Shown here one piece after another: positions 2,530-57,355 of a stretch of DNA of 57,401 nucleotides. This stretch comes from Gracilibacillus sp. YIM 98692 (lineage in GTDB: Bacteria; Bacillota; Bacilli; Bacillales; Amphibacillaceae): assembly GCF_010993965.1 (NCBI RefSeq), contig NZ_WIXM01000025.1:1-57401 (forward strand), written 5' to 3'. Made by a program: the position numbers and the translations under genes. The notes below the pieces were generated by a model. It was not told the DNA's origin. It made no database searches and worked only from the letters and a program-made list of their open reading frames with translations. The first letter of the stretch is position 1. The number at the start of each line of letters is the position of its first letter.

Positions 2530-2718
2530 TCGTCCTTCCTTCAGTTACGATAACAAATTTCTTCTGCAAATAAGCATATAGGAAATAAAGAGAGTAGTAA
2601 ATAGTAAAGGATTATGCTCTCACATTATTTGATTAGTATTGACAACTTTTCATAACAATAAAAAAATAGTTATGTTAAAATAGATACGATATTTTAATCA
2701 AGAATCTAGGGTGAAAAT

Positions 2719-39615: not shown

Positions 39616-39639
39616 TATACCAACACCCTTTCAGCTAAT

Positions 39640-39656
39640 TGCGGACAGATGCTGAA
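39640..39656 (+). repeat. 17-base repeat, copy 1
   Basis: TGCGGACAGATGCTGAA, located between the integrase start and the repressor 3' end. The same 17 bases occur at 40641-40657. Here the flank TTCAGC makes a small inverted repeat with GCTGAA. It might be an arm-type integrase site or an operator. Confidence 0.75.
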
Positions 39657-39667
39657 GGGTTATCTTG

Positions 39668-40198
39668 TTATTCAGTTGAGTTTATATATATTTCAATCCA
39701 TTCCCTAACAAAATCCTTAAGCTCTTTATGAATATAGTCTTCTATATAAGAAGGAAAATTAGTGTTCTTTAAGAAATGTTTAAACTTTATTGATGGTATA
39801 AGATCAATTATTTTATAACTACTTATTTCAAATTCGTGGAAAAACGTACACTCAATTTTAAAATGAAAATTATGATTTTTCCCATCAATCATAAGTAAAC
39901 AATTTAACGTCAAATCTAATAAGTCTTCAATTGTTTTTTCTTCATTTGATAATTCCATTATAGAAGAGTCTATCTCCTCAAACTTTAATTCAATATCATG
40001 CATAACTAAAAGATCGCCAGGTTTACAATTTAGCAACTTACAAAGAATTACTAGTGTGTCAAATTGTATTCCGTTACTGTAATGGTTGATTAAATTACTG
40101 ATAGTAGTTCGAGAAAGAGAGGTACTTTCTTGGATTTTTTTTATGTTTAAATTTTTTTCAACCATTTTATCGTTGAGGGTGCAAAATATCTTTTCCAA
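39668..40198 (-). CDS. CI/Stl-like repressor with Cro/C1-type HTH
   Basis: A 176-residue protein with an N-terminal XRE-type HTH (IQESTSLSRTTISNLINHYSNG, about residues 21-42) followed by CKLLNCKPGDLL, typical of small Bacillus/phage repressors. Residues 70-176 form an unrecognised helical domain, possibly for oligomerisation or inducer binding. It is divergent from the DUF771-like gene across a region with inverted operator-like repeats, so it is the likely master repressor of the island. Confidence 0.83.
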   Translation of the reverse strand: MEKIFCTLNDKMVEKNLNIKKIQESTSLSRTTISNLINHYSNGIQFDTLVILCKLLNCKPGDLLVMHDIELKFEEIDSSIMELSNEEKTIEDLLDLTLNCLLMIDGKNHNFHFKIECTFFHEFEISSYKIIDLIPSIKFKHFLKNTNFPSYIEDYIHKELKDFVREWIEIYINSTE

Positions 40199-40228
40199 AT
40201 GGTCACCTCCTTAAAACTGTTTATTTAC

Positions 40229-40340
40229 AACCATTATATTGGTTATTTTGAAAAAGTTCAATATATTTATTGACATATACAAGACTATGGATTATATTTA
40301 CTTCATAACCAATAAGGTGGTTATAAATTAAATAACCAAT
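40229..40340. promoter_or_regulatory. Divergent control region with operator repeats
   Basis: A consensus promoter facing right has TTGACA at 40270-40275 and TATATT at 40293-40298 with a 17-base spacer. ATAACCAATA-type boxes occur at 40238-40247 (inverted), 40305-40314, 40318-40324 (inverted) and 40331-40340. The pairs make inverted repeats (AACCA...TGGTT and ATAACC...GGTTAT) suited to a dimeric repressor. The downstream boxes would block the rightward promoter. Confidence 0.72.
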
Positions 40341-40364
40341 AAAAAGAGAGGTGAGGTGATATTT

Positions 40365-40637
40365 ATGGCTATTACAAATGTAAAGTTAGACGTTGATACT
40401 AAAGAAGTAAAAGATTACATCGTGAGAAAATTAGAAAAAAATTTTGATGAATTGTTATTTACTTGGGATTTGGATGAAATGGTAAAAAGAACATGTATGA
40501 GTAAGTCCTTTCTAGAAAAAGAATTTTTGCAAGATCCTAGAATGAAGTTAATTGAAAGAAGAAAAGAAAAAGGTAAACGTTTCTGGTTTTTCAGTGAAAG
40601 TATTGAAGTTATGAAAGAAATTATGAATGAGTGGTAA
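40365..40637 (+). CDS. DUF771-like small DNA-binding protein
   Basis: A 90-residue protein resembling phage DUF771 proteins ([27 protein letters not shown]), which have an excisionase-like winged helix. As the first gene of the rightward operon it may act as excisionase or as an early regulator, the place held by str/xis in staphylococcal islands. ATG 40365 is favoured over GTG 40356 because of the GAGGTGAGGTG ribosome site. Confidence 0.7.
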
Positions 40638-40640
40638 AAA

Positions 40641-40657
40641 TGCGGACAGATGCTGAA
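40641..40657 (+). repeat. 17-base repeat, copy 2
   Basis: TGCGGACAGATGCTGAA, identical to 39640-39656. It lies four bases after the DUF771-like stop codon and 50 bases ahead of the primase gene. Confidence 0.75.
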
Positions 40658-40690
40658 CTGAAATAAATTATAAAGTGTAGAGATCTGATT

Positions 40691-42910
40691 ATGATCGGAG
40701 GTGAAAATATAGAACTTACTATGAAGCAAGAAAAAAAATTGACTTATGACCGTTATATTCATATTACTGAATATAAATCCATTTTCAACACAACTTCTTT
40801 TACTAAAGAGGTGACATATGGACAATTTATAAACAAGTTCATTAAACCAAAGATCACTAATACAAAAGGTGGAGCTGGTTGCTTTATAGGTGGAAAGGTG
40901 ATTGGAAGTCGTACTAATAAAAATGTAATTTCAAGAAGTTTGGTAACACTAGACATTGATAATCAAGTTACTGCAGATGGAGAGTTAGTTACTGAATGGA
41001 TAAAGAAAAATTTAAAACGCTGTTTCAAAAACAGTTATGTTATTTATTCAACTCATAATAGTACAGTAGAAAATCCAAGATATAGATTAATAATTCCCTT
41101 AGCAAAAGACGTAGATTCCATTACCTTTCAGCTAATAAGTAAATTTGTTGTGGAAGAAATATTAAGGATTGATGTTGATGTATCAAGCTTCAAACCCAGT
41201 CAAGCAATGTATTATCCTACTTGTGTTGATGGTGAAAATTATGAATTCTATTGTCAAGATACAGGTATGGTTAATCCTGAAGATTTAATGGAGGAAATAA
41301 CCAGTTCTAGGAAAAGGTATTTTAAAAAAGGAGATCCTCGAAAAAAGAAAAATTGGATAGGTGCTTGGTGTAACGTTTATAGTGTAATAGATGTTTTAAA
41401 AAAATTTTTATCAGATACTTACAAGCCAGTTAGTCAAAATCGATACACTTATACTAAAGGAAGTTCTGAAGGGGGGCTAGTTGTTTATGATAATCAAACC
41501 TTCATTTACAGCTTTCATGCATCTGATCCTATTTCTGGTAAGTGTTTAAATGCATTTGATTTATTAAGATTAACTCGGTTCGGAGATTTAGATAAAGGTT
41601 ATAGTAAACAGACTCCAATACATGAGCGACCATCTTATTTGAAAATGATTGAACTTTGCAAGACTGATAGTAGAGTTTTAGATTTTTATAGCAAACTTAA
41701 AAATAAGAAAAGTAAAGTTTCTTGGGAAAAGACATTGGAGCTTGACCAGCGGGGGAACTATAAAAACTCAAGGTTAAATATGTTAAGAATATTAAAAAAG
41801 GACAAAAATTTAAAAGATATTGGTAGACTAAATGAATTTTCGGGTGAAAACGAGATTTATAAAAAGCCACCATGGAGAAAAAACAGTGATCATAATTTTC
41901 AATGGGCTGAAACTGATGAAGCTCAGCTAAGAAACTATTTTGCTTTAAATTATGGAATTGAACATAAAAATAGATTGAATGACTGCCTAACACAGGTATT
42001 TTATGAAAATTCTTATCACCCAATTAAGGAATATTTAAGCAGATTAAAGTGGGATGGAAAACCAAGATTGGATACAGTTTTTATTGATTATTTAGGTGCT
42101 AAAGATAATCTGTATTCAAGAACAGTTACTAAAAAAATGTTAGTAGCAGCAGTCGCTAGAATATTTAAACCAGGTATTAAATTTGATTATGCATTGGTAT
42201 TGATTGGTGCTCAAGGTATTAATAAAAGTCTAATATTAAAAAAATTAGGACGAAATTGGTTTAATGAAAGTTTAAGCTCTTTTAAAGGGGATGACGCTTT
42301 TATCAAAATAAGAGCTAGCTGGATAGTTGAATTAGCTGAACTATCAGCCTTGAAAAATTCGGAACTTGAAGAAGCTAAATCATTTATTAGTGCACAAGAA
42401 GATATTTATAGGCCAAAATATCAAAAAAATGTACAAAGGTTTCCTCGCCAATGTGTTTTCTTTGGGACTACTAACAATGTTGAATTTTTAAATGATATAA
42501 CTGGCGGAAGAAGGTTTTGGCCTTTAACTGTAAAAATCCATGCTAGAAAATTCGATCCGCATTCTGATCTAACAGATGAAATAATCGATCAAATATGGGC
42601 TGAAGCTTATTTCTATTATAAAAAAGGTGAGAAATTATATTTAGATAATGAAGAAGTTGTAAAAGAAGCTTTAGATTTGCAAGAAGAACATACCACAGAG
42701 AATGGGATGATGGGCATAGTTGAGGAGTATATTTCAAATAAAAATTTTATTTGTGCTAGAGAGATTTGGAATGAATGCTTAAATTATTCAAAAGAACCAA
42801 CTAAAAAAGATATTAGAGAGATAAATGATATGTTAAGAAAATTTGGTTGGACTGAATATAGAGGTTCCTTTAAAAATTATGGACTACAAAGAGGTTTTAA
42901 AAGAAACTAA
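40691..42910 (+). CDS. VapE-type primase-helicase (Pri-Rep) of the island
   Basis: A 739-residue replication protein. The N-terminal part has a primase-polymerase-like acidic motif (SRSLVTLDIDNQ) and RYRLIIPL. The C-terminal part is a virulence-associated E superfamily-3 helicase: Walker A IGAQGINKSLILKKLG at about residue 504, then WIVELAELSAL, FFGTTNNVEFL and TGGRRFWPL. It should initiate replication at the iterons downstream. Start is uncertain: ATG 40691 lacks a ribosome site, while GGAGGTGA at 40697-40704 suits a non-ATG codon (ATA 40709) better than ATG 40721. Confidence 0.88.
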   Translation: MIGGENIELTMKQEKKLTYDRYIHITEYKSIFNTTSFTKEVTYGQFINKFIKPKITNTKGGAGCFIGGKVIGSRTNKNVISRSLVTLDIDNQVTADGELVTEWIKKNLKRCFKNSYVIYSTHNSTVENPRYRLIIPLAKDVDSITFQLISKFVVEEILRIDVDVSSFKPSQAMYYPTCVDGENYEFYCQDTGMVNPEDLMEEITSSRKRYFKKGDPRKKKNWIGAWCNVYSVIDVLKKFLSDTYKPVSQNRYTYTKGSSEGGLVVYDNQTFIYSFHASDPISGKCLNAFDLLRLTRFGDLDKGYSKQTPIHERPSYLKMIELCKTDSRVLDFYSKLKNKKSKVSWEKTLELDQRGNYKNSRLNMLRILKKDKNLKDIGRLNEFSGENEIYKKPPWRKNSDHNFQWAETDEAQLRNYFALNYGIEHKNRLNDCLTQVFYENSYHPIKEYLSRLKWDGKPRLDTVFIDYLGAKDNLYSRTVTKKMLVAAVARIFKPGIKFDYALVLIGAQGINKSLILKKLGRNWFNESLSSFKGDDAFIKIRASWIVELAELSALKNSELEEAKSFISAQEDIYRPKYQKNVQRFPRQCVFFGTTNNVEFLNDITGGRRFWPLTVKIHARKFDPHSDLTDEIIDQIWAEAYFYYKKGEKLYLDNEEVVKEALDLQEEHTTENGMMGIVEEYISNKNFICAREIWNECLNYSKEPTKKDIREINDMLRKFGWTEYRGSFKNYGLQRGFKRN

Positions 42911-47802: not shown

Positions 47803-47886
47803 TTACCCCTTCGAATGAGACATAAATATATTTAGGCTCATTCATTTTTTATTTGTTAAACTATATATGTGAAGAAATGAACTTAA

Positions 47887-47921
47887 ACTAACGTGGCAGG
47901 TTACTTGAAGAAGGGTAGGTG
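47887..47921 (+). repeat. Cassette-type repeat R1 (degenerate)
   Basis: ACTAACGTGGC core followed by AGGTTACTTGAAGAAGGGT. The core differs from TAACGGGTGGC by a deletion and the arms pair poorly. It lies 57 bases before the next start codon. An even weaker trace is at 47713-47738. Confidence 0.5.
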
Positions 47922-47977
47922 AAAAATAGAACTATCATAAAAGCAATAAACGATTTAAAAATTAGAGGGATGATTAT

Positions 47978-48655
47978 ATGGAGTCTAAAAAAATTTTACA
48001 AATGTTAGACAATTATGCGTCAGAGTTTGAGTTTCCTGTATTAGATAATTATAACTTCGATTTGGCACAATGCAGACTTACTGTATTCAAGAAACAAGAA
48101 GAATGGTTAATTATCATAGAAATGGTAGGGGCTAGAAATGATGCCATAGAAAATGTCATTTATGCCTATGGTAACTGTATAAAACAAAACGGCATTATTA
48201 TCAGTGTAGATAATTTGGTTTCTTTAGATAATGATGAGTGGTGGTACGATGATGATGGAAAATTGGTGTTAAATCCATTGCATTTAAAGTTAAATATTCA
48301 ACAAGAACAAATGAAGATTTCTCCCACAAAAGAGGATTATAAAAAATATGGTATAGAAATGGAGCCTTTCAGCTTAACAAAACTAATTCGCTTCCTAAGT
48401 GCACAATACAGTGAAAAATTATGGCTGTCCACTCAGGAACTGTTAATGGAAGTAGGCATGCAAAACAAAATGCCAATGTTTTTTGAAATAAATGAGTGGG
48501 AACATCCAGACATTAGCCAAAGTCAGATGCCAAGTGATTCCCCTTTTTTTCAACAATTATCCAATGCTATTGAAAATAATGATACCTCTTACATAAAGCT
48601 GAATAAGCCTAATACTCATTGGCCTAATTGGACTTGGTGTGATTTAGATACGTAG
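47978..48655 (+). CDS. Hypothetical protein (cassette gene)
   Basis: A 225-residue soluble acidic protein with no signal peptide or transmembrane segment. Features include WWYDDDGKLVLNPLHLKL and a C-terminal tryptophan cluster (THWPNWTWCDLDT). I do not recognise a family; proteins like this are often found near immunity genes. TTAGAGGGATG gives a ribosome site for ATG 47978. It lies between repeats R1 and R2 and is likely a complete single-gene unit. Confidence 0.7.
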   Translation: MESKKILQMLDNYASEFEFPVLDNYNFDLAQCRLTVFKKQEEWLIIIEMVGARNDAIENVIYAYGNCIKQNGIIISVDNLVSLDNDEWWYDDDGKLVLNPLHLKLNIQQEQMKISPTKEDYKKYGIEMEPFSLTKLIRFLSAQYSEKLWLSTQELLMEVGMQNKMPMFFEINEWEHPDISQSQMPSDSPFFQQLSNAIENNDTSYIKLNKPNTHWPNWTWCDLDT

Positions 48656-48728
48656 GAAGAAATAACCGAGAGATAAATTGGTGCCCTTTGTTCAACAAAA
48701 CCAGCTAATAGAAGCGTTTCTTATTGCA

Positions 48729-48765
48729 TTAACGGGTAGCAAGAGTTGAATATGCAAATATGAAT
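48729..48765 (+). repeat. Cassette-type repeat R2
   Basis: ATTAACGGGTAGC core followed by AAGAGTTGAATATGC; the hairpin is degraded. It lies 74 bases after the preceding stop codon and 74 before the next start. Confidence 0.65.
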
Positions 48766-48838
48766 TGTTAAGGCTGAACTTTCTAAATTAGAGTTATGTT
48801 GCAGAAGTAAAATCAAAGTATTTTAGGATGGGTGATTG

Positions 48839-49417
48839 ATGAAAAAGTTAATAAGTTTTTCCCTAATTACTGTCATATCAGTAGCACTGATTTATTGGCT
48901 TGGTTTTTCAGATTTTGAACTTGGAAAATACGATAATTTTCAAGAAGCTATTGAAAAAGGTATTCCTTATAGAGTAAATGATATAATCCACACTGAACAA
49001 TATGATAATGTAACCATTGTAATGTACACAACAGAACCTAACAAAGAAGATTTCCCCTTTGCAGATTGGGAAGCTCTTGCAGTAGCTTTCTTCATAGGTA
49101 GTGACGAAAAAGGATGGAAAAATATTGGTCATCATGGATGGGACCACTACGAGAATGACAACATGACAATTTACAGTGAGTCTCTTCGTGAACATGACAA
49201 TGACGGCAATAAGCTTCACGAATTTTATGTGGTGTTCGGTGAAGTAAATAATGGCGAAATCATAAAAGTGGAAACTAAAGCTAAAGAAGAAGAAAAATTT
49301 GAAGAAGCTAAAATTATCACGGCAAAAGGAAAACGTTATTATTTTAAAATTGGTAGAGAAATGATTGTTAGAGGATTATCTAAAAGTGGTGAAGTTATTG
49401 ACAGACAAGGTGGATAA
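48839..49417 (+). CDS. Hypothetical membrane-anchored protein (cassette gene)
   Basis: About 192 residues: an N-terminal hydrophobic helix (LISFSLITVISVALIYWLGF) that is a signal anchor, then an extracytoplasmic domain without known motifs. The visible repeats of charged and aromatic residues (HHGWDHYENDNMTIY) give no family. GGATGGGTGA precedes ATG 48839. It stands alone between repeats R2 and R3. Confidence 0.7.
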   Translation: MKKLISFSLITVISVALIYWLGFSDFELGKYDNFQEAIEKGIPYRVNDIIHTEQYDNVTIVMYTTEPNKEDFPFADWEALAVAFFIGSDEKGWKNIGHHGWDHYENDNMTIYSESLREHDNDGNKLHEFYVVFGEVNNGEIIKVETKAKEEEKFEEAKIITAKGKRYYFKIGREMIVRGLSKSGEVIDRQGG

Positions 49418-49444
49418 TAAAATAATTGTGAAAAATTGTACTTA

Positions 49445-49482
49445 AAGTAAAGGGTAGCATTTCTACAATAAGATAGATACGC
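49445..49482 (+). repeat. Cassette-type repeat R3
   Basis: AGTAAAGGGTAGC core, then a hairpin GCATTTCTA/TAGATACGC with loop CAATAAGA (two mismatches). A second perfect hairpin AGATACGC/GCGTATCT follows at once. It begins 28 bases after the stop of the preceding gene. Confidence 0.75.
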
Positions 49483-49578
49483 ATCAGCGTATCTAAACAA
49501 GTAAAATAAAGTATTAAAAGCCTGGATACTCCAAGCTCTTAATACGGATAAAAGTCCTCGGTCTTTTTTGACATCCTA

Positions 49579-50582
49579 TTATTTAAGATCCTTTACGTTA
49601 GTTTTCCTTGCAAATTCCATTTTTATAGTGAGGTCATCGAGATAATCGATAGCGCGAAGCTTTTCGGTTCCAACATATATATTTTCTATCTCTTCTACTT
49701 TAGAAAAAGTCAATTGATACGTATGCTTTCTATCTTCCAATCGTTTCGGAGGGGTATCGTTTTTATATCTTTTTCCGGTTTCGTTTTCTACCATACCGAA
49801 TTAGCTTGAAAATAATTTAAATCACCTTGAATTTTATAGGTAACGTTACTTTATCTCTTTTCTTTTTTACGTCATGTACTAAAATTGTTCCACTTTCGCC
49901 CTGGGACAGTGTAAAACTCTTTCCTTCCCACTTTTTTTTCATTATCTTTGGTGTATGTTGATCAAACGGGCGTAAATAAGGCTGTACTGTTAGTGATTCT
50001 GGTACGGAGTCTAATGGCTCAAAATAATAGTTATCGATCATAAGGATTTTGTCGTTTTCTATCGTTTTTCCATGACCATCTCCTCCTAATGGTTGAAGAA
50101 TGCGCCCTTCCTGATCGTTGACATGTAATCCTATATCAATCGGATTTTTGTGTTGTTTGATCTCTTCTTCGTTAACCGTGTATTGAATCGTTACCATTGT
50201 AGTGGTGGGATAAAACGTCACATTTTTATACTCAATTGAAAGGATGTCGGTTTTTTTGGTTTTATTTATAGCAAAAAGCTTACTTTCTCGAGATTACTCA
50301 AATAATTACTCGGTAAGCGAGACTTGGTTTTAGGAGATTGGATTAGATAAGCAAGATGTATATTTGAGCCATCATAAAGCTTTCGGTAATAAGGATGGTA
50401 TGATCTTTTATTGTTAACTTTTTATTTACGGGAATGGTAAGCCCTTGTTTACTAGCTTTTACTTGACCAATATTCCCTGCCTTTTCGAAAATAGATTCCT
50501 TTGCCAGTACCTGAAGCGGAAACAAGAGAGAAAGCCAAAAAGCTATGATGCCGGTGATTATAATATATTTTCTTAAAAGCAT
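49579..50582 (-). pseudogene. Broken DUF4179/DUF5643-type anti-sigma-like protein
   Basis: Three minus-strand fragments form one decayed gene. 50582-50343 gives a signal anchor (YIIITGIIAFWLSLLFPLQVLA) and GLTIPVNKKLTIKDHTILITESF. A shift leads to YDGSNIHLAYLIQSP; another shift gives the DUF5643-like domain at 50280-49817 (NVTFYPTTTMVTIQYTVNEEE); and a further shift gives the C-terminal part at 49794-49579 (HTYQLTFSKVEEIENIYVG). At least three frameshifts are needed. Such domains are the outer part of sigma-regulating proteins. It is the only opposite-strand gene of the array region. Confidence 0.72.
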
Positions 50583-51022
50583 GGGTGCCTCCTTTGAATG
50601 AATACTTTTTAAATAGCTTGCTCAGAAAAAGTGGCAAACATGTACTTATATTGCAAGTTAAAAACATCATCTGTCTTCGCAGCGATGTATACAACATATT
50701 GCGTCCTCTTAATTTGAAGATAATTACTCTATTCGTAATGTTCTCCATCTTATAATAAAAATTCTTAAAAAAGAAATAACAGACATGGTAACTTGTGCAA
50801 ATAAAGGAGGCAACGGTTAGAGATCGAATTTTGATAAGCCCATTGAAAGGAGTATCACTTTAGTAAATGTTCTTAAGTGAGTGTCTTTATATGACATCTA
50901 CAGAGATATTACTAGTGGATAAATATGTTACAATTTTCCATATGATATGTTAATATGAGCGTGCTGTATGGCAATGGCAGAAATGTCTATTAGGAAATAT
51001 ATATTATTGGAGGAATAAATAA

Positions 51023-51580
51023 ATGGCATTAAAGAAAAGGGGTATATTTTCTATTGTTATATTATTTATATTGATATTCATGTCAATTACCATTATAAAA
51101 CAACATAATAAATTAAATGAATTAGAAAATATTCACTCCCAATCTGAAGCAAGATTAATTAGTCACTTTAATGCTCAGCATATTAGTTATTTGTTTGGTG
51201 AAGTATTGGAGGAGCCAAGTAAACAAAATATAGAAACTCTTTATAATTCATTAAGTAATACAGAGTCTATAATTCGGGCTCTTATCGAGTTAAATAAGGA
51301 AGATATCACGATCTCTTTTGAAGGAGGTGGCTTCATGCGGTGAGAAGATGGATGGGTTAGACATGAAGCTACACCAGTTTATTTATATAATTTAATACCT
51401 GATGATGAGCAACCTGTAAACCTAAAAGATAAAGACAAAGAAAGAATTTTAGAAACGAAGGAAGCTTGGGATAAACTTATAAATAATAATCAAATAAACT
51501 TCAACATGAATCGTCGAATTAAAGATGCTAATCTATTGACAGAAACTTACCTCAGGTTGGTTAAAAGAATACATGAGTGA
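51023..51580 (+). pseudogene. Membrane protein gene interrupted by an in-frame TGA
   Basis: Codons 1-106 encode a single-helix protein (GIFSIVILFILIFMSITII) ending GGGFMR, then TGA at 51341-51343. The same frame continues open for 78 codons (EDGWVRHEATPVYLYNLIPD to LRLVKRIHE) to a second TGA at 51578-51580. The whole reads as one 185-codon gene with a nonsense codon, perhaps TGG to TGA. AGGAGG precedes the ATG. The preceding 440 bases contain no gene. Confidence 0.75.
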
Positions 51581-51732
51581 ACAATTGAGGAAATCAGTTC
51601 TTTATTATTGAAGTAAGGTGCAGGATAACTCTGTAATCTATGTTTAACGTTTTTAGGAAAGAATAGGAATAATTATTTACTTAGGACGAATAATAAGATT
51701 AAGAATATACGTCTTGGTGGAGGGTTTTATTT

Positions 51733-52206
51733 ATGGCGATTGCAGTGTTTTTCTTCGCTTCTTGGCTAGTTTGTGTGGCTTTTGCAGTTATGCAAAAAAA
51801 ACTTTCGCTTGTAGAAAACACATTTGTTTACTTAATCATATTAATCGTAAGTATTAATTTTTTATGGATAATTATCGAAGAATTTAAATTAATAACGCTT
51901 ACGAAAAATGGTGTTGATTATACTGCGTATATTCTCAACCGCAGTGTAATAATTCCCATGTTAATAATAATGCAGTTGAATCTAATTCAAAAAAGTAATA
52001 GTGTTGCTAAGTCGGCTGTAATCGTCATTGCTACTGTGGCAATAATGCTGGGGTTAAGTGTTCTCTCTACACAATTCAATATAACAACAAATATAAAATG
52101 GAACTTTGGGTACGATGTTATATACTTTTTAACGCTTCACCTCATTGGATATTATGTTTTCAAAACGTTTAGGAAAATAGCCTATCGTGAGGTGAAGAAC
52201 ACATGA
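51733..52206 (+). CDS. Polytopic membrane protein, CBO0543-like (first of pair)
   Basis: A 157-residue protein of four or five hydrophobic helices (VFFFASWLVCVAFAV, FVYLIILIVSINFLWIII, AVIVIATVAIMLGLSVL, VIYFLTLHLIGYYVF). It resembles the small CBO0543-type integral membrane proteins of Bacilli and Clostridia, whose function is unknown. GGTGGAGGG lies ahead of the ATG. It overlaps the next gene by four bases (ATGA), so they are coupled. Confidence 0.7.
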   Translation: MAIAVFFFASWLVCVAFAVMQKKLSLVENTFVYLIILIVSINFLWIIIEEFKLITLTKNGVDYTAYILNRSVIIPMLIIMQLNLIQKSNSVAKSAVIVIATVAIMLGLSVLSTQFNITTNIKWNFGYDVIYFLTLHLIGYYVFKTFRKIAYREVKNT

Positions 52207-52691
52207 TGTTATATGAGAATTTCGATAAAAATGAGATATATATCTTATCAATGTTAATTATTGCATACGGAGCCTTTTTTCTTTTTCCTAAAAAACTACC
52301 TCGTGATGTTACATCAATGTTTTTGGTGTGGGGATTTGCCTATTCAACTTTTTTTGACTTCACGATTGGTGGAGGTTTACTTGATTTCTATAAAGTAAAT
52401 GACTCAAATAAGTACGAGTTATTTGACCTTTTAACTTATTTTCCATTTGCTACGTTCAGTTATTTTTTTATTTATTTTTATGAAAGACTTAAAATTGATA
52501 AAAAGAAATTTTTATTTTATGTAATTGGATGGACTATAATTGGACTGGTCATGGAGAGGATATCAATATGGATGGAAGTAATCCATTATCAAAATGGTTA
52601 TAAACAGTATTACTCCTTGATTGTTTTCCTGGTGGTTCAAACGGTTACAGGTCTTTATTATGAATTAATAAAGAGACAACATAAGTATTGA
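52203..52691 (+). CDS. Polytopic membrane protein, CBO0543-like (second of pair)
   Basis: A 162-residue protein of about five helices with conserved-looking acidic and aromatic residues in the membrane (WGFAYSTFFDFTIGGGLLDFY, then VMERISIWMEVIHYQNGY). The end YSLIVFLVVQTVTGLYYELI is typical of the CBO0543-like proteins. Its start overlaps the stop of the preceding similar-sized membrane gene, suggesting a two-component membrane complex. It is followed after 24 bases by repeat R4. Confidence 0.72.
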   Translation: MMLYENFDKNEIYILSMLIIAYGAFFLFPKKLPRDVTSMFLVWGFAYSTFFDFTIGGGLLDFYKVNDSNKYELFDLLTYFPFATFSYFFIYFYERLKIDKKKFLFYVIGWTIIGLVMERISIWMEVIHYQNGYKQYYSLIVFLVVQTVTGLYYELIKRQHKY

Positions 52692-52715
52692 CCTTTTTAT
52701 CTTGATTGTTATTGC

Positions 52716-52752
52716 ACTAAAGGGGGCGATTATTCAATAAGAATAGTCGCCT
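52716..52752 (+). repeat. Cassette-type repeat R4
   Basis: ACTAAAGGGGGC core with a strong hairpin GGCGATTATT/AATAGTCGCC (one G-T pair) and loop CAATAAG, then CTTTAC. It begins 24 bases after the preceding stop. A weak trace of another copy (ATTAATGGGTG) is at 52827. Confidence 0.85.
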
Positions 52753-52908
52753 TTACTTTACTGTTCAATTAAGCAGTAAGATCAACACATCCGAGATAGA
52801 TTAACGCCAATAAACTTACTTTTCATTAATGGGTGATTTTGTATTTAATGTATGAAAATGATACGAAATTTTTCTATTTATGAATAAGAAGGATAGGGGG
52901 TTAATTAT

Positions 52909-53109
52909 GGACATATTGATGTTTGTAATAGTAACTATTACTCTAATCATCATAGCTATAATTACTTCTAATCACTATCTAAAAAAGGGATATAAGAAGA
53001 GAGCCCAATTGTATCCAGCGGATCTGGATTAGGTACTCTAGTTGGAGTGTTAGTTAAGGGGTCATTCCTTGAAACTTTAGTTGTTATTTTGTTTTTGATC
53101 ATATTGTAA
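52909..53109 (+). pseudogene. Small two-helix membrane protein with a frameshift
   Basis: From ATG 52909 the frame gives MDILMFVIVTITLIIIAI, a membrane helix, then YKKRAQLYPADLD-stop at 53031. One base over, the open frame continues PIVSSGSGLGTLVGVLVKG and SFLETLVVILFLIIL to the stop at 53107-53109. The joined product would be a roughly 66-residue protein with a second helix. GATAGGGGG precedes the ATG. A shift in the run around 53005-53012 is the likely cause. It lies between repeats R4 and R5. Confidence 0.6.
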
Positions 53110-53218
53110 TATTCTCAATTCATGATGATTACTCGGTCCTCAAAGTCATTCCAATCTATTAGAAGCAAGCTTAAAAAGTAATAAAGATTTTGTGTAAAAA
53201 TCTCAAATTCGAGACTTC

Positions 53219-53254
53219 AACTAACGGGTGGCTTATTTGGAACAAGGTAAGGTG
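53219..53254 (+). repeat. Cassette-type repeat R5
   Basis: ACTAACGGGTGGC core, arms CTTATT and AAGGTAAG, loop TGGAAC. The right arm AAGGTAAGGTGA also provides the ribosome-binding site of the next gene, starting at 53263. Confidence 0.85.
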
Positions 53255-53262
53255 ATATGTTT

Positions 53263-53514
53263 ATGAATGAACCTAATATGAAAGAAGTCATTGAGATGTT
53301 GGAAAAGGTGCTTTCTGGTGATTTAAAGAGAGAAGAAATATCAGAATGGGCTGAATCATATGTTATGGCTGACGAACCAAAGGTTGATGACAAAAATGTT
53401 TGGGAAATGTTACAGATAATTAGTGGAATTGATATTTTAGATTCACCCAAAACCTATCTACATAACGAAGAAGACATAAAGGAATGGATTGAAAAAGCAA
53501 AAGATTTGTTGTGA
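53263..53514 (+). CDS. Hypothetical acidic protein (cassette gene)
   Basis: An 83-residue, wholly helical acidic protein (MKEVIEMLEKVLSGDLKREE, then WEMLQIISGIDILDSPKTYL). It resembles small immunity-type or regulatory proteins, but I cannot name the family. ATG 53263 is eight bases after AAGGTGA, which belongs to repeat R5; ATG 53257 is too close. The stop codon directly touches repeat R6. Confidence 0.68.
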   Translation: MNEPNMKEVIEMLEKVLSGDLKREEISEWAESYVMADEPKVDDKNVWEMLQIISGIDILDSPKTYLHNEEDIKEWIEKAKDLL

Positions 53515-53546
53515 AGCTAACGGGTGGCTCATGTTTAACAAGGTCA
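53515..53546 (+). repeat. Cassette-type repeat R6
   Basis: GCTAACGGGTGGC core begins one base after the TGA of the preceding gene, followed by TCATGTTTAACAAGGTC. The loop TAACAAG is kept but the arms pair poorly. Confidence 0.8.
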
Positions 53547-53565
53547 AAAGAAATTGGAGGATAAC

Positions 53566-53859
53566 ATGGTAATACCAAATGATTTGGACGGTGCGAGAGT
53601 AATCCAATACACTCGAAATATAAAAAATAATAAATTTGGAACAGTAGGGATTATAAACGATAAAAATGAAACAATAGGTGAATTGCCAATTACAGCTATG
53701 GCTATTTGCCAGTATGAAGGAAGTAAAGTGTATTACCTATTCTCTTGTGATTTGAATTGGGATGTTATTGGTGATTTTGATTGCTATTCTATAAAAGAAG
53801 CTATGGAGATAGCTAAGGATAGTTATAACGTGATACTTGAGGATTGGATAACTAAATAG
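53566..53859 (+). CDS. Hypothetical soluble protein (cassette gene)
   Basis: A 97-residue alpha/beta protein (VIPNDLDGARVIQYTRNI, then YYLFSCDLNWDVIGDFDCYS, and a final helix IKEAMEIAKDSYNVILEDW). No membrane segment and no recognised family. GGAGG six bases before ATG 53566 sets the start. It sits alone between R6 and R7, about 20 bases from R6 and 8 from R7. Confidence 0.7.
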   Translation: MVIPNDLDGARVIQYTRNIKNNKFGTVGIINDKNETIGELPITAMAICQYEGSKVYYLFSCDLNWDVIGDFDCYSIKEAMEIAKDSYNVILEDWITK

Positions 53860-53867
53860 CCTTATTG

Positions 53868-53909
53868 CATTAACGGGTGGCGTATCTGGAATAAGCAGAT
53901 ACGCTCTTT
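53868..53909 (+). repeat. Cassette-type repeat R7 (best-preserved copy)
   Basis: ATTAACGGGTGGC core and a perfect nine-base stem GCGTATCTG/CAGATACGC with loop GAATAAG, followed by TCTTTG. It begins nine bases after the TAG of the preceding gene. Confidence 0.9.
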
Positions 53910-53977
53910 GCAGAAAGTTTGAAAAAGTTGAACTATATTATTGAGAATAACGTCTAATTTTATGGAGGTGTATGTAT

Positions 53978-54388
53978 ATGAAAAAAATAATGAGCATTAT
54001 TTTACTTTTTGCAATCATATTATTAGCTGCTTGTTCTGGACAAGAAAAAGGGGAATTAACAAGAGTAGATGTTCAAAAGGTTGATAAAGAAGGAAATTAC
54101 GAAGAAGTTGTAATGATAACAGATAATGAATCTATTGAGTTGTTAAAGAAAACATTCGAAGATATTAAATGGGATGATAAAGTGGTTAACATGGCTAGAA
54201 AAGCAGATGTAAAAGCGACATTGTTTTATGAGTATGATAAAAACATGCCTGAAAGATTGGTTGAATATGAAATTTGGTTTAATGAAAATACAGGTACAGC
54301 AGAAATTGTCAGTAATAATGAAAAAGAAGGCTATGGAGAATTAGACAAAGAAAATACAAATATTCTTAGAAAAAATTTACTAAAGTAA
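53978..54388 (+). CDS. Hypothetical lipoprotein (cassette gene)
   Basis: A 136-residue protein with a lipoprotein signal: basic start MKKI, hydrophobic stretch IILLFAIILLA and lipobox LAAC (Cys19 or so), so it should be lipid-anchored outside the membrane. The mature part is charged with no known domain. GGAGGTG lies seven bases before ATG 53978. The TAA stop codon is part of repeat R8 (GTAACGGGG). Confidence 0.78.
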   Translation: MKKIMSIILLFAIILLAACSGQEKGELTRVDVQKVDKEGNYEEVVMITDNESIELLKKTFEDIKWDDKVVNMARKADVKATLFYEYDKNMPERLVEYEIWFNENTGTAEIVSNNEKEGYGELDKENTNILRKNLLK

Positions 54389-54420
54389 CGGGGGGCGATT
54401 GTCCAATAAAGGCAATCGCT
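54385..54420 (+). repeat. Cassette-type repeat R8, containing a stop codon
   Basis: GTAACGGGGGGC core with stem GCGATTG/CAATCGC (extended by TCC/AGG with a mismatch) and loop AATAA. The TAA inside the core at 54386-54388 is the stop codon of the upstream lipoprotein gene. Confidence 0.88.
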
Positions 54421-54479
54421 CTTGTGCTAAAAACGTAGTTGAAGAGAGAATATCAAATAACAAAAACCTGGGGGAATTC

Positions 54480-54992
54480 ATTATCAAGATTAGGACTATA
54501 TGTACAATTGTGGTTATTGTCTTATCAATTGGTTTAGTTGGTTGTGTAAATAAGGATATGGATGTTACATCTCCTCTAGTATTCTACGGAGAGAGTGATA
54601 CTTGGACTGGAACATTATATGTAGAACAATCCCAAAATGATGGAGAGAATACATTTCAGGTGAACCAACTATCAAATCTGACTTATAAAGGTGATTTTGA
54701 AAAAATCAGTAAGAGACAAATAGATGAGGACAGTATTCCAGTTCACTCTTCTTTTGAAGGTGTTATGAGAAGTGGAGGTAATAGCAGTCAAATACAAGAA
54801 ACCACTGGAAGGAATAAGTCTTCTAGTCATTCAGATGAATATGCAACAAAAGATGATGAGTTCAAAGTGGTTGTAGAATGGGACAACAAAAAAGAAACTT
54901 TTATAATGACCTTCAATGAGGAAAAGACTTCGAAGGCACAAAGACTTGATAAAGAGGAAGCTCTTAGATATTTTTATGAGCCGCAAAAGTGA
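54480..54992 (+). CDS. Hypothetical lipoprotein without a canonical start (cassette gene)
   Basis: About 170 residues with a clear lipoprotein signal (IIKIRTICTIVVIVLSIGLVGC). The ribosome site GGGGGAA at 54470-54476 is followed by ATT 54480, ATC 54483 and ATT 54489 instead of ATG. The only conventional upstream start is TTG 54399, inside repeat R8 without a ribosome site. It may use a rare start codon or be disabled. The mature part (FQVNQLSNLTYKGDFEKIS, serine-rich middle) has no recognised domain. Confidence 0.65.
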   Translation: MIKIRTICTIVVIVLSIGLVGCVNKDMDVTSPLVFYGESDTWTGTLYVEQSQNDGENTFQVNQLSNLTYKGDFEKISKRQIDEDSIPVHSSFEGVMRSGGNSSQIQETTGRNKSSSHSDEYATKDDEFKVVVEWDNKKETFIMTFNEEKTSKAQRLDKEEALRYFYEPQK

Positions 54993-55014
54993 CCTAGTAT
55001 GATTTCATTGTTTC

Positions 55015-55043
55015 ACTAAAGGGTTCTTTCCTGAAATAAGGAG
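55015..55043 (+). repeat. Cassette-type repeat R9 (weak hairpin)
   Basis: ACTAAAGGGTTC core followed by TTTCCTGAAATAAGGAG: short stem TCCT/AGGA with loop GAAATA. It begins 23 bases after the preceding stop. Confidence 0.65.
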
Positions 55044-55166
55044 TTGTCGATCTATTTGGTAGCTCCTATTTAGATTGAATAGGCAGTTTATCCAAATTGA
55101 TTAACTGAATTTTCTTACATGTTTTTCAATGAATAGATAACTAAAATTTAAAGAGGAGGGAATAGA

Positions 55167-55679
55167 ATGATGATGAAAATATACATTGCTTTGTTATTTT
55201 TGTTCGTTTTAATTTTAACAGCTTGTAGTTCAGAGAAGACTTTAAAAGATTGGGAAATAGAAATACAAGATAGACCAATAAATATAGCTTATGTAGGTGT
55301 AAAACCAAATCTCAACGAAGATGGAGTTACTTTTATTTCTTACTCAGATGGTGGAGACTATGAAGCTCTATGGATTGATGGTTCAGAATTCGAAAATTTC
55401 ACTTCTAAGGAAGCAATAGCTGATATCAAAGAAATACTTAATGAAGGTAAGGTTGTAGTATTTTTAACCAAAGAAAATGCGTTTGATACAATTGCTCCAG
55501 AACTAGGTATAAATGGTTATGAAGAATCTGATGGAGGAAGTGCTGTTCAGCATGGTTTTTATCTATGGGATGAAAATGGAGAAGTTCGTATCGGATTTGT
55601 GTTAGGAGATAAAGGTGAAAAATCGTGGACAATTTTTTTAGAAAATACTATACAGAAGAGTCGAAATATACATAAATAA
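55167..55679 (+). CDS. Hypothetical lipoprotein (cassette gene)
   Basis: A 170-residue protein with a lipoprotein signal (IYIALLFLFVLILTACSS; lipobox LTAC). The mature domain of about 150 residues includes VVFLTKENAFDTIAPEL and GEVRIGFVLGDKGEKSW; no family recognised. GAGGAGGGA lies six bases before the first of three consecutive ATG codons. It occupies one repeat-to-repeat unit (R9 to R10). Confidence 0.78.
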   Translation: MMMKIYIALLFLFVLILTACSSEKTLKDWEIEIQDRPINIAYVGVKPNLNEDGVTFISYSDGGDYEALWIDGSEFENFTSKEAIADIKEILNEGKVVVFLTKENAFDTIAPELGINGYEESDGGSAVQHGFYLWDENGEVRIGFVLGDKGEKSWTIFLENTIQKSRNIHK

Positions 55680-55697
55680 ACTACAATTTCTTATTAC

Positions 55698-55733
55698 ACT
55701 AACGGGAGCTTATCTTGAACTAGGATACAGCTC
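55698..55733 (+). repeat. Cassette-type repeat R10
   Basis: ACTAACGGGAGC core, arms GAGCTTATC and GATACAGCTC (one bulge), loop TTGAACTAG. It begins 19 bases after the preceding stop. Confidence 0.8.
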
Positions 55734-55845
55734 ATATTGTGAGGGCAGGATAGTTCAAAAAGAGAGTGCATCTTGATGACTAAAAGGATTAGATTTACAA
55801 TTTGTAAGGTAGGTAAATTATCCGTATAAAAGTAGGTAGGTTAAT

Positions 55846-56679
55846 ATGAAAAAGTTACATAATAGGCGTTTAATAAGAAAAAATGTTTTAAGTAATCGTA
55901 GAAAAAACAGAAGAGAAAATATTATCGCTAATGAAGCTACACAAAAAAAAGAGTTAGTATGGAGAAAAATGGAGATAAGATTTTCTTTGTTTGCATTAAT
56001 TATTTCACTGCTAACGTTTTCTTGGACTTTATACCAAGATTATAAAAATAATCAAGAGGAAATAGTTATTAACTCATTTACCCCTACATTGGATACTAAC
56101 GTGTCTTTTAATAAAATTGAACTTCCAAAAAGTCCATATATAGTAACAATGAGAATTGGTATCTTACTAACTAATACTAATGAAAAAACAGTAACATTAA
56201 CTAACTATAGATTGGAGCAAATTGGGAAAACAGATCTCGATATAAATTTTGAATACCCAACTTTTTATTCCGGAATGGATCAAGGATTTAGTGATGAAAA
56301 TGGTACTAGTCAAGACCTACCCTTTATTCTTAAAAAGGGAGAGAGCAAACTTGTATATATTAATACAGGAATATTAATCAATAATAATGTATTTGAAAAG
56401 ATCAATGAGGTTTATAAGATAGAAAATGAGAAAGATATTCCAGAAAATATAGAATTAACCTATAGAGAATTATCATATTACTTAGTAAAAGCCCAAACTG
56501 ATTTATATGGCAATAAAATAGAGGGTGATGCTTATAAAAGTGATGAGGGGGAAAAATCTTTTCATCATGTAATAGACATAGATAAAAGTGATTTTCCTAT
56601 TTTTTCTATTACTTTTAAGTCTGTGAACGGTACATATTTCGAACATATTTTCTATGAATACAAACATGAGAATTTTTAA
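55846..56679 (+). CDS. Hypothetical membrane-anchored protein (cassette gene)
   Basis: A 277-residue protein: a strongly basic cytoplasmic N terminus of about 45 residues (KKLHNRRLIRKNVLSNRRKN), one transmembrane helix (FSLFALIISLLTFSWTLY, about residues 46-63) and a beta-rich domain of about 210 residues (VTMRIGILLTNTNEKTVTLT). I do not recognise the family. TAGGTAGGTT precedes the ATG. It is followed by two repeats in a row. Confidence 0.72.
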   Translation: MKKLHNRRLIRKNVLSNRRKNRRENIIANEATQKKELVWRKMEIRFSLFALIISLLTFSWTLYQDYKNNQEEIVINSFTPTLDTNVSFNKIELPKSPYIVTMRIGILLTNTNEKTVTLTNYRLEQIGKTDLDINFEYPTFYSGMDQGFSDENGTSQDLPFILKKGESKLVYINTGILINNNVFEKINEVYKIENEKDIPENIELTYRELSYYLVKAQTDLYGNKIEGDAYKSDEGEKSFHHVIDIDKSDFPIFSITFKSVNGTYFEHIFYEYKHENF

Positions 56680-56699
56680 ACTGTTTTTTCACCCTCTTT

Positions 56700-56733
56700 T
56701 CTAACAGGGGTCTTAATCCAAGGAAGATTGACA
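56700..56733 (+). repeat. Cassette-type repeat R11 (degenerate)
   Basis: CTAACAGGGGTC core with poor arms (GTCTTAATCC, GGAAGATTGAC). It lies 22 bases ahead of R12 with no gene between them. Confidence 0.5.
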
Positions 56734-56754
56734 ATTTTTGGTTGTACTTATAGA

Positions 56755-56792
56755 ACTAAAGGGTGGCATTACCGCAACAATGGCAATGCTTT
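56755..56792 (+). repeat. Cassette-type repeat R12
   Basis: ACTAAAGGGTGGC core, stem GCATTACC/GGCAATGC (one mismatch), loop GCAACAAT, then TTTTTC. A good copy. Confidence 0.85.
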
Positions 56793-56849
56793 TTCTTTAC
56801 GTAAAGGGCAGAATACTTTAATAAAAGGATTAAGAAAGAAGGGAGTAAT

Positions 56850-57266
56850 TTGAAAAATTTAAAAGTCTGTTTAGATGATTTATGGGCAAATGTAATAGAG
56901 GAAATGAATATTGATGTTTTTAATCATAGTATTTCATTTACTACAAAGGCAATTGATAATGGAACGATTACAAATAACCAATTAACATTTGAAGAGGTAT
57001 CATCATTTTACTTCGTCGAAGGCACTGGTGATGAAAGATTTAACTTATTAGAGCCAGAAGAGGATAGTTATTTAGAATTAACCTCAATTGACTACCATCC
57101 AAAAGGAGTGGGGTTAATTTCAGTTAAGTCAGAGACTGAAGAATGGGTAAAACAGTATATTTCTAATTCAAACTTTTCAATAGAAATTTGGAGTTCAATG
57201 TTATTTGTTGAAGCGAACCGAATAGTTATAAACGGGAAAACCTTTGATGTTGGACAACCACATTAG
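56850..57266 (+). CDS. Hypothetical soluble protein (cassette gene)
   Basis: A 138-residue protein without signal or membrane segment, alternating strands (SFTTKAIDNGTITNNQLTFE, YLELTSIDYHPKGVGLISVK, FSIEIWSSMLFVEANRIVI). The overall pattern recalls small immunity-type proteins such as the YxiG group, but this is not certain. The start is TTG 56850 behind AAGGGAG. The gene occupies the unit between R12 and R13. Confidence 0.68.
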   Translation: MKNLKVCLDDLWANVIEEMNIDVFNHSISFTTKAIDNGTITNNQLTFEEVSSFYFVEGTGDERFNLLEPEEDSYLELTSIDYHPKGVGLISVKSETEEWVKQYISNSNFSIEIWSSMLFVEANRIVINGKTFDVGQPH

Positions 57267-57282
57267 ACTAAAACCTTATTAA

Positions 57283-57319
57283 ATTAACGGGTGCGTATTT
57301 CCAATAAGCAGATACACTT
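57283..57319 (+). repeat. Cassette-type repeat R13
   Basis: ATTAACGGGTGCG core, arms CGTATTT and CAGATACAC, loop CCAATAAG, then TTTTTT. It begins 17 bases after the preceding stop and only four bases before R14. Confidence 0.82.
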
Positions 57320-57323
57320 TTTT

Positions 57324-57355
57324 ACTAACGAGTGGCGTTAGTTTAACAAGCCGAT
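57324..57355 (+). repeat. Cassette-type repeat R14
   Basis: ACTAACGAGTGGC core followed by GTTAGTTTAACAAGCCG; the loop TAACAAG is kept and the arms are degraded. It is back to back with R13, with no gene between. Confidence 0.7.

Follow-up and report, generated by a model that had tools for sequence, protein, structure and literature searches.

What is the short repeat that separates unrelated genes at the right end of this 57,401-nt stretch (contig NZ_WIXM01000025.1 of Gracilibacillus sp. YIM 98692, hereafter the window)? The initial annotation, made from the sequence alone, likened positions 47887 to 57355 to an array of integron gene cassettes with a structured recombination site. Comparison with other genomes supports a cassette array with a site-specific, non-attC site, i.e., homologous units change neighbors in the core of the site, units are shared between genera, and a recombinase is linked to the sites. 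The window very probably holds the left end of a gene-cassette array. The array is highly likely to be part of a cassette system, found in Bacillaceae and their relatives, that resembles integrons without being a member of the integron family. In Bacillus-like bacteria the repeat appears to mark where units meet in a large collection of interchangeable genes that seems to be mobile.

Sites were scored by a weight matrix of 122 copies from other genomes, i.e., 150 aligned copies minus 28 rows of the window's own genome; the 122 had originally been found with a model trained on the window copies. With this own-genome-free matrix, 14 sites of the window scored at least 15, and they lie between 47889 and 57326. 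All were on the + strand and none lay left of 47800, as the initial annotation had stated for strand and for the chromosome to the left. The same matrix found a mean of 0.19 sites and a maximum of 2 in 100 dinucleotide shuffles. Thirteen of the 14 positions listed initially were recovered; that at 56700 found no support, and a weaker copy at 56802 (score 15.7) had been missed. An earlier matrix including the own copies gave a single marginal match far to the left, at 5980 (score 12.8, cut-off 12). The pattern TAAMGGGNGGC, with at most one mismatch, matched 12 times against 2.5 expected, 8 times within the array and 4 times leftward. A covariance model trained on 12 window copies gave 11 strong matches, all necessarily in the array, followed by one at E = 0.03. 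This hairpin-bearing model (R1) was used as a search tool only, and it misses weaker sites (11 strong matches in the window versus 14 matrix sites). At the Rfam gathering score, the window contained only T-box, 5S rRNA, and Bacillaceae-1 matches, all outside the array.

The site consists of two inverted arms around a core, CTTnTTnAAC-TAAnGGGTGC-n(4-6)-TTnAAnAAG. In the 150 aligned copies, conservation extends from -11 to about +38 around a near-constant TAA. The left arm CTTnTTnAAC is followed by TAA, [CA]GGGTGC, a variable stretch, and TTnAAnAAG, the inverted copy of the left arm. Right halves occur as GGGTGC and GGGCAG types. A second left-arm type, TTGTGAAnnAnTGTACTTAAAC, longer than CTTATTGAAC, was seen by eye to be common, e.g., at 49424-49448 of the window and at L149:9516 (G, C, and L numbers denote genomes, contigs, and loci of the analysis).

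The hairpin, which the initial annotation had taken for the shared feature of recombination, was rejected as a defining feature by comparison of 1160 sites from 123 loci. The stem arms S:S' showed 33.5% Watson-Crick pairs versus 29.2% in the permuted control, and a good stem (at least 9/10 pairs, best of three registers, G-T allowed) was present in 142 of the 1160 sites. Left and right arms showed no covariation beyond baseline. In 12 of the copies read initially, pairing was 59.3% versus 51.1% in shuffles, and 6 of 500 shuffles were as high. The hairpin was instead found as terminator-like content of a minority of sites.

The covariance-model search of Bacillaceae genomes that the initial annotation had proposed was run, and sites were clustered and rare among ordinary genes. 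The window's genome had 64 places at E <= 1, and at least one place at E <= 0.1 was found in 53 of 61 genomes, i.e., the window's own and 60 relatives. Large clusters held 65 sites in G029 (Oceanobacillus chungangensis) and 58 in G054, in which the sites of a single contig (G054:C28) extend across as much as about 55 kb. Phylum-wide, at E <= 0.001, 2 of 119 genomes matched, namely the window's own and one with two weak matches. The 123 array and recombinase loci (2.13 Mb), picked for many sites and for the recombinase, respectively, contained 1890 sites scoring at least 12 and 1030 scoring at least 20. The control was 400 kb from 20 regions of the same genomes at arbitrary, author-chosen coordinates away from arrays. 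It contained 9 sites of at least 12 (about 0.45 per 20 kb), 2 of at least 16, and none of at least 20; an equal occurrence between core genes, which would have spoken for a terminator or regulatory element, was thus not found.

The unit content is almost all different, because 1019 units form 915 families. Only 59 families contain more than one unit; recombinase units make up the largest, with 36 units. The initial annotation described the genes as nearly all co-directional. They are mostly so in the window and in relatives, except that the 3.3-kb unit 49448-52718 includes short minus-strand open reading frames (ORFs). The longest ORF was co-oriented with the site in 636 of the 745 units having one; 51 further units had no ORF.

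In an all-against-all comparison, similarity between homologous units at different places stopped at sites, consistent with the initial expectation of precise borders in the core. With recombinase units excluded, similarity ended near a site in 24.6% of 984 cases versus 4.0% for shifted positions. Among 36 segments of at least 96% identity, 57% of 61 usable ends lay in a site in one or both of the copies, and 39% did so in both, versus 5.7% at random (site cut-off 10; rows are partly non-independent, since some come from one locus). Shared segments crossed genera, i.e., 6250 bp at 99.7% between Paucisalibacillus and Gracilibacillus and 2986 bp at 98.8% between Mesobacillus and Rossellomorea. 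Neobacillus novalis and N. soli shared 1841 bp at 99.1%, comprising the recombinase unit and its neighbor, and a single 223-bp cassette was present at two places of one array. Window cassette 53949-54392 has a 78% copy on a Metabacillus plasmid, near a recombinase relative of 50% identity, and the similarity stops at 54392, within the core of site 8. Similarity of 54442-55042 to G036 (L085) ends inside site 9. Contig C14 of the same genome begins with a 94% copy of positions 47847-48684.

The halves of the sites were compared in 41 homologous pairs with unrelated neighbors, excluding recombinase units. Compared with random pairs, identity was raised in the right half of the upstream site (0.669 versus 0.575) and in the downstream site's left half (0.724 versus 0.551), so that these halves were shared, and the outer halves were not (0.555 versus 0.565 and 0.587 versus 0.568). 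As judged from these comparisons, a unit is the right half of one site through the left half of the next. In junction views the identity switched in or beside the core. Left-shared junctions were identical up to -1 in 32 of 42 cases, and none of these 32 first differed at T0-A2, where 42% would be expected of unrelated sites. Position +3 differed in 6 of these 32 versus about half expected, i.e., it mostly travels with the left piece. Ten right-shared junctions were identical from +4 on, and +3 differed in 4 of them, near the 49.5% of chance. Several junctions share a locus. From these position-by-position identities, the crossover is best placed at TAAn|GGG.

A search with PF00589 found tyrosine recombinases of about 280 aa inside arrays, oriented opposite to the sites. 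The initial annotation had asked which recombinase co-occurs and saw no integron integrase. A dedicated recombinase of the Xer type is absent from the window but lies amid the sites in other arrays of this genome and of relatives. The scan of named genomes kept the best 80 of 396 recombinase relatives as loci, under 30 genus names. Among these 80, a site of at least 12 was found in 80 and a site of at least 16 in 77. Sites opposed the recombinase by 724:16 at 64 loci and ran parallel to it by 84:13 at the other 16. In the tree, from which four of the 80 loci with more than two stops were omitted, the 63 mainly opposed loci (59 rows used) formed one clade (99/96). The 13 mainly parallel loci fell outside it, 4 loci had no majority, and XerC/XerD-like proteins of the same order were separate (100/100). 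A site lay within 200 bp on both sides of the gene in 30 of 57 testable opposed loci, compared with 13.8% per side for random positions. L067 and L071 have the site borders of the recombinase gene in common on either side, L198 and L199 on one side only, and in L152/L179 the recombinase and a neighboring unit share cassette borders. As far as such alignments tell, the gene can itself have cassette borders.

The recombinase is a Xer-type tyrosine recombinase family that is neither IntI nor XerC/D. R138, K162, H228, R231, H254, and Y263 were invariant in 7 of 7 members; by alignment to XerD, they are the catalytic R-K-H-R-H-Y residues of tyrosine recombinases. In 29 aligned members, R138, K162, and H228 were invariant and R231, H254, and Y263 were kept in at least 90%, with the catalytic residues retained in intact copies. 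Two members shown fell below the cut-offs of the XerA, XerC, and XerD models. The integron integrase model TIGR02249 gave 98.3 and 94.7 bits in two members, each as two split stretches, against a cut-off of 265. All 29 aligned members ranked the XerA, XerC, XerD, and integron integrase models in the same E-value order. The first structural match was XerA, from a model with a predicted local distance difference test (pLDDT) of 80, a predicted template modeling (pTM) score of 0.54, and a weak C-terminus.

Relatives at E <= 1e-40 were found in 10 of the 61 genomes, two of them (G016 and G049) with only 37% and 35% identity. The 8 genomes with a close recombinase had a median of 32 sites versus 4 in the 53 others, among which G016 and G049 were counted (p = 2e-4). 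Nine of 398 phylum genomes matched the recombinase at E <= 1e-70, and the best scores were confined to the same order. Recombinase genes and some cassettes are carried on plasmids, and on three plasmids the neighborhood includes NUDIX, GNAT, and other small enzymes. The loci L119, L121-L125, L127-L131, L133, L134, L274, L278-L282, and L286 were not individually scanned for sites, and L135 was dropped as a copy of G029:C2.

Some recombinase loci carried distant names, i.e., L156 (Chryseobacterium sp. ISL-80), L145 and L185 (Paenibacillus), and L289 (an Arthrobacter citreus NEB 577 plasmid). L156, L145, and L185 fall inside Bacillaceae clades of the tree. The records are possibly mislabelled or contaminated, or the loci were transferred. 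At G016:C8:70449-71261, an intact recombinase of 37% identity lies in another array, parallel to the sites, and is perhaps a further lineage serving the same sites. Contigs C2 and C27-C31 of G031 hold eight identical-scoring copies of a 325-aa tyrosine recombinase, probably an unrelated high-copy mobile element.

Sites on the same strand frequently occur in tandem, with 220 spacings of 40-59 bp. Defining a tandem as a spacing of 34-75 bp, a stem of at least 8 pairs was present in 38.6% of 352 tandem-first sites; the share among the 1534 remaining sites was 10.3% (odds ratio 5.5, p = 2e-33). First sites were of the GGGTGC (159), GCAG (6), and other (170) types, and second sites were of the GCAG (170), GGGTGC (76), and other (106) types. 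The window has two tandems, 56757/56802 and 57285/57326. Our reading of a tandem is a gene-less mini-cassette (often 45-bp) holding only a terminator, followed by a gene cassette. A second gene-less class peaks at 100-120 bp (54 units of 80-160 bp) and often has a terminator-like stem and a promoter-like motif, as read partly by eye. Examples of about 100-125 bp in several genera, with a stem and then GGAAnnTTATGnTA or similar, are L078:3059-3164, L081:2582-2707, L143:14096-14215, and L102:9054-9170. The motif GGAAnnTTATGnTA was first seen by eye at contig starts. A site lay no more than 1.5 kb away in 31 cases, in all of which motif and site were on the same strand, and 3 more had no such site; its density was 15.9 per Mb versus 5.0 in the control (2 hits). 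A loose promoter pattern matched 34 of the 54 short units, a figure without control. A promoter in every cassette was rejected, as the -35/-10 consensus score at +25 to +110 was not above antisense and slightly below shuffles. We would guess that mini-cassettes serve as movable terminators or promoters.

Because of the enzyme class and the site anatomy, the following working model is proposed. A cassette would start with the right half of a site, i.e., GGGTGC or GGGCAG and then the arm TTnAAnAAG, contain one gene, a coupled pair, or none, and end with the left half of the next site, i.e., the arm CTTnTTnAAC and then TAAn. The dedicated recombinase would bind both inverted arms, and strand exchange would take place in the core, most probably at TAAn|GGG, with the asymmetric core setting the direction. 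Recombination between direct sites would release the cassette as a circle with one whole site, and the reverse reaction would insert the circle at another site. The recombinase gene would also travel as a cassette, with its facing fixed per clade. Mini-cassettes with a terminator, or with a terminator and a promoter-like motif, would isolate or drive their neighbors. It is likely that Bacillaceae and their relatives have in this a cassette system of their own, apart from integrons, in which the Xer-type recombinase is one of the cassettes, the sites have two arms and a TAAn|GGG crossover, arrays extend to about 55 kb, and mini-cassettes act as movable terminators and promoters. Such a system would have been overlooked because searches targeted IntI and attC.

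Several results weigh against this model. In the parallel clade, just 1 of 12 loci had a site within 200 bp on both sides. Among the 53 genomes that have a site at E <= 0.1, 45 lack a close recombinase, and 5 of 11 recombinase genes from the whole-genome search (L120, L126 = L285, L132, L275, and L283; loci of 2.5-3.8 kb) had no site of at least 12 within about 1.5 kb. Of the near-identical ends, 43% of the 61 were not at a detected site; the first difference lay at -3 to -1 in 10 of 42 left-shared junctions, and the last difference lay at +5 or farther out in 12 of the 22 that were right-shared. The window array matched 2 of 17 genomes of the genus, one of which is itself, so that it is nearly unique there. 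A clean one-unit difference between close strains, which the initial annotation had proposed to look for, was not found. In the best indel case, the recombinase unit of Ectobacillus (L167) directly precedes a unit that Neobacillus pocheonensis (L191) has further on. The extra insert of L191 is a 1.44-kb cassette plus a 50-bp mini-cassette, all site-bounded, and not a single unit; with 72% identity of the recombinase units and 90% of the other unit, the two are not close strains. Excision, a circle, and insertion were not observed in these sequences.

That the repeat is a transcription terminator, or another RNA element after accessory genes without a role in recombination, is very improbable. 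Most window sites do closely follow a stop codon, as described initially, and TTT follows 73% of the 234 of 1160 sites with at least 8/10 pairs, versus 25% of the 410 sites with at most 5. However, a stem with a T run occurs in a subset only, for which reason a Rho-independent terminator was rejected as the general explanation; most sites lack a good stem, and the best-conserved positions fall outside it. The junctions largely contradict a terminator, since similarity switches at the core and it is the following gene, not the preceding one, that the right half and any hairpin in it travel with. The sites are also tied to a recombinase with clade-fixed orientation.

The many site-bearing genomes without a linked recombinase, the recombinase genes without a close site, and the membership of the recombinase in the Xer superfamily would all suit another explanation, i.e., host XerC/XerD (as for dif modules in Acinetobacter) or several integrases recombine the sites and the linked recombinase is a passenger cassette. 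This is improbable, as the recombinase clade is separate from same-order XerC/XerD-like proteins, its intact aligned copies keep the catalytic residues, and the site orientation, direct and not alternating, tracks the clade. Sharing between genera is evident and plasmids carry recombinase genes and some cassettes, so the units might also spread by natural transformation or plasmids and be exchanged by homologous recombination between short repeats. The sites, however, have only about 50 loosely conserved bases in common (in random pairs, the halves are about 55-58% identical). Homologous recombination needs more than this, and the switch point is restricted to a short core. This last explanation is hardly credible. 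Exchange by the linked recombinase through a circular intermediate is what we infer instead.

Cassette arrays as such are known; the enzyme, the site, and the layout differ from the families tested. Like integrons, these arrays are long and have a site between units; most units hold one gene, they share one orientation, and nearly all differ from each other. A crossover inside the site makes the unit carry part of two sites, the tyrosine recombinase faces the other way (here in one clade), and many arrays lack a recombinase, as in clusters of attC sites lacking integron-integrases (CALIN). The arrays are thus of site-bounded cassettes, which comparison suggests to be interchangeable. Unlike in integrons, the recombinase is Xer-like, with the member shown scoring well under the cut-off for IntI, lies inside the array, and can have cassette borders. 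The attC boxes are absent, as initially stated, with RYYYAAC in register in 3 of 1160 sites and both RYYYAAC and GTTRRRY in none; GTTRRRY occurred within +3..+63 in 192 of 1160 sites versus 89 expected by shuffling. The arms lack the covariation expected of a folded attC, no platform standing apart from the array was seen, although no search was aimed at attI, and the system is mainly of Bacillaceae and relatives. A passage of one paper (PMC9024848) describes integrons as extremely rare in Firmicutes, with one complete integron, in Limnochorda.

The dif (pdif) modules of Acinetobacter plasmids are similar in that genes bounded by Xer-family sites are shuffled as modules. Those modules rely on XerC/XerD of the host, and their 28-bp sites alternate in orientation, whereas the sites here are direct (724:16 and 84:13 on one strand) and linked to a dedicated recombinase. 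From the Xer recombinases XerA, XerD, and XerH, the family differs by two members below the XerA/XerC/XerD cut-offs and a clade apart from XerC/XerD-like proteins. The bcr repeats of the Bacillus cereus group are likewise short repeats in Bacillus genomes and were considered by description only, as were IS200/IS605 and repetitive extragenic palindromic (REP) elements. No description of such arrays in Bacillaceae was found in searches of open-licence literature, preprints not covered; one may exist elsewhere.

The arrays form an integron-like gene store under about 30 genus names, nearly all Firmicutes. Almost every unit is different, and near-identical units are shared across genera. The store is a large pool of uncharacterised genes, with a concrete enzyme, site, and crossover position open to testing. 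It offers a second case for how cassette arrays arise and how their genes get expressed, and the sites would allow annotators to mark cassette borders across Bacillaceae.

The part of the array in the window is as follows, with site scores from the own-genome-free matrix.

47878..47913, + strand: cassette site 1, the left array edge; TAA at 47889, score 24.4
47978..48655, + strand: cassette gene, an ORF of the DUF7003 family (PF22535, 185.7 bits)
48719..48754, + strand: cassette site 2; TAA at 48730, score 26.2
48842..49417, + strand: cassette gene, an ORF without Pfam family at E <= 0.01 in the Pfam scan
49437..49472, + strand: cassette site 3; TAA at 49448, score 27.2; longer left arm of the TTGTGAAnnATTGTACTTAAA type, by eye
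49579..51343, no single strand: short, apparently decayed ORFs, several on the - strand, from the ORF list; part of unit 49448-52718
51733..52691, + strand: two overlapping ORFs, 51733-52206 and 52203-52691, membrane-protein-like by eye; no Pfam family
52707..52742, + strand: cassette site 4; TAA at 52718, score 34.2; terminator-like stem GGCGATTATTC/GAATAGTCGCC
53211..53246, + strand: cassette site 5; TAA at 53222, score 28.9
53257..53514, + strand: cassette gene, an ORF of 85 aa; no Pfam family
53507..53542, + strand: cassette site 6; TAA at 53518, score 30.0
53554..53859, + strand: cassette gene, an ORF of up to 101 aa; no Pfam family
53860..53895, + strand: cassette site 7, with a 9-bp stem; TAA at 53871, score 29.7; best covariance-model match, 56 bits
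53972..54388, + strand: cassette gene, lipoprotein-like (lipobox by eye); the TAA of site 8 serves as its stop codon
54375..54410, + strand: cassette site 8; TAA at 54386, score 22.7
54483..54992, + strand: cassette gene, an ORF, lipoprotein-like by eye; 82% relative in G036 (L085:2637-3238)
55006..55041, + strand: cassette site 9; TAA at 55017, score 26.1
55167..55679, + strand: cassette gene, lipoprotein-like by eye, from ORF and Pfam scan
55689..55724, + strand: cassette site 10; TAA at 55700, score 33.8
55737-55762: degenerate second site TTGTGAGGGCAGGATAGTTCAAAAAG after site 10, read by eye and not scored as a site
55846..56679, + strand: cassette gene, an ORF of 277 aa; Pfam matches only below cut-off
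56746..56781, + strand: cassette site 11, first of a tandem; TAA at 56757, score 21.0; then a 45-bp terminator-like mini-cassette
56791..56826, + strand: cassette site 12, weaker, GCAG type; TAA at 56802, score 15.7
56850..57266, + strand: cassette gene, an ORF of 138 aa; outside the Pfam scan
57274..57309, + strand: cassette site 13, first of a tandem; TAA at 57285, score 31.7; then a 41-bp terminator-like mini-cassette
57315..57350, + strand: cassette site 14; TAA at 57326, score 19.4

Only 1 of the 10 window proteins scanned had a Pfam family at cut-off (DUF7003), and three cassette proteins have a lipoprotein-like N-terminus, as read by eye. Inside the long unit 49448-52718, no site of at least 9.5 was found with the own-genome-free matrix.

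The window is contig C18 of the analysis. Its last 67 nt, from 57335 just right of GGGT in the right half of site 14 to the contig end, are identical to the last 67 nt of C26. The first 67 nt are likewise identical in the contig pairs C34/C56 and C14/C69, which split within a site. The equal 67-nt lengths suggest the word size of the assembler, and the forks reflect either the same cassette in two arrays or an array order varying in the population. The in-array recombinase copy of this genome, on C69, is interrupted by a stop codon, and an intact relative of 65% identity is on C34, with no site within 1.5 kb. With the C69 copy broken and the C34 relative intact, the array may be mobile in trans or a remnant.

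Inside another array of this genome, L005 (G000:C69) holds at 1476-3549 coupled DprA-like and phosphoribosyltransferase-like proteins, as read by eye, and the pair could have a defence or DNA-uptake function. Left of the window array, positions 38425-42910 contain a phage-type integrase (396 aa, - strand), a small helix-turn-helix (HTH)-like protein, and a 739-aa primase/VirE-like ORF, the latter two named by eye. The region may be the remains of a prophage or of a satellite element and seems to have no connection with the cassette sites.

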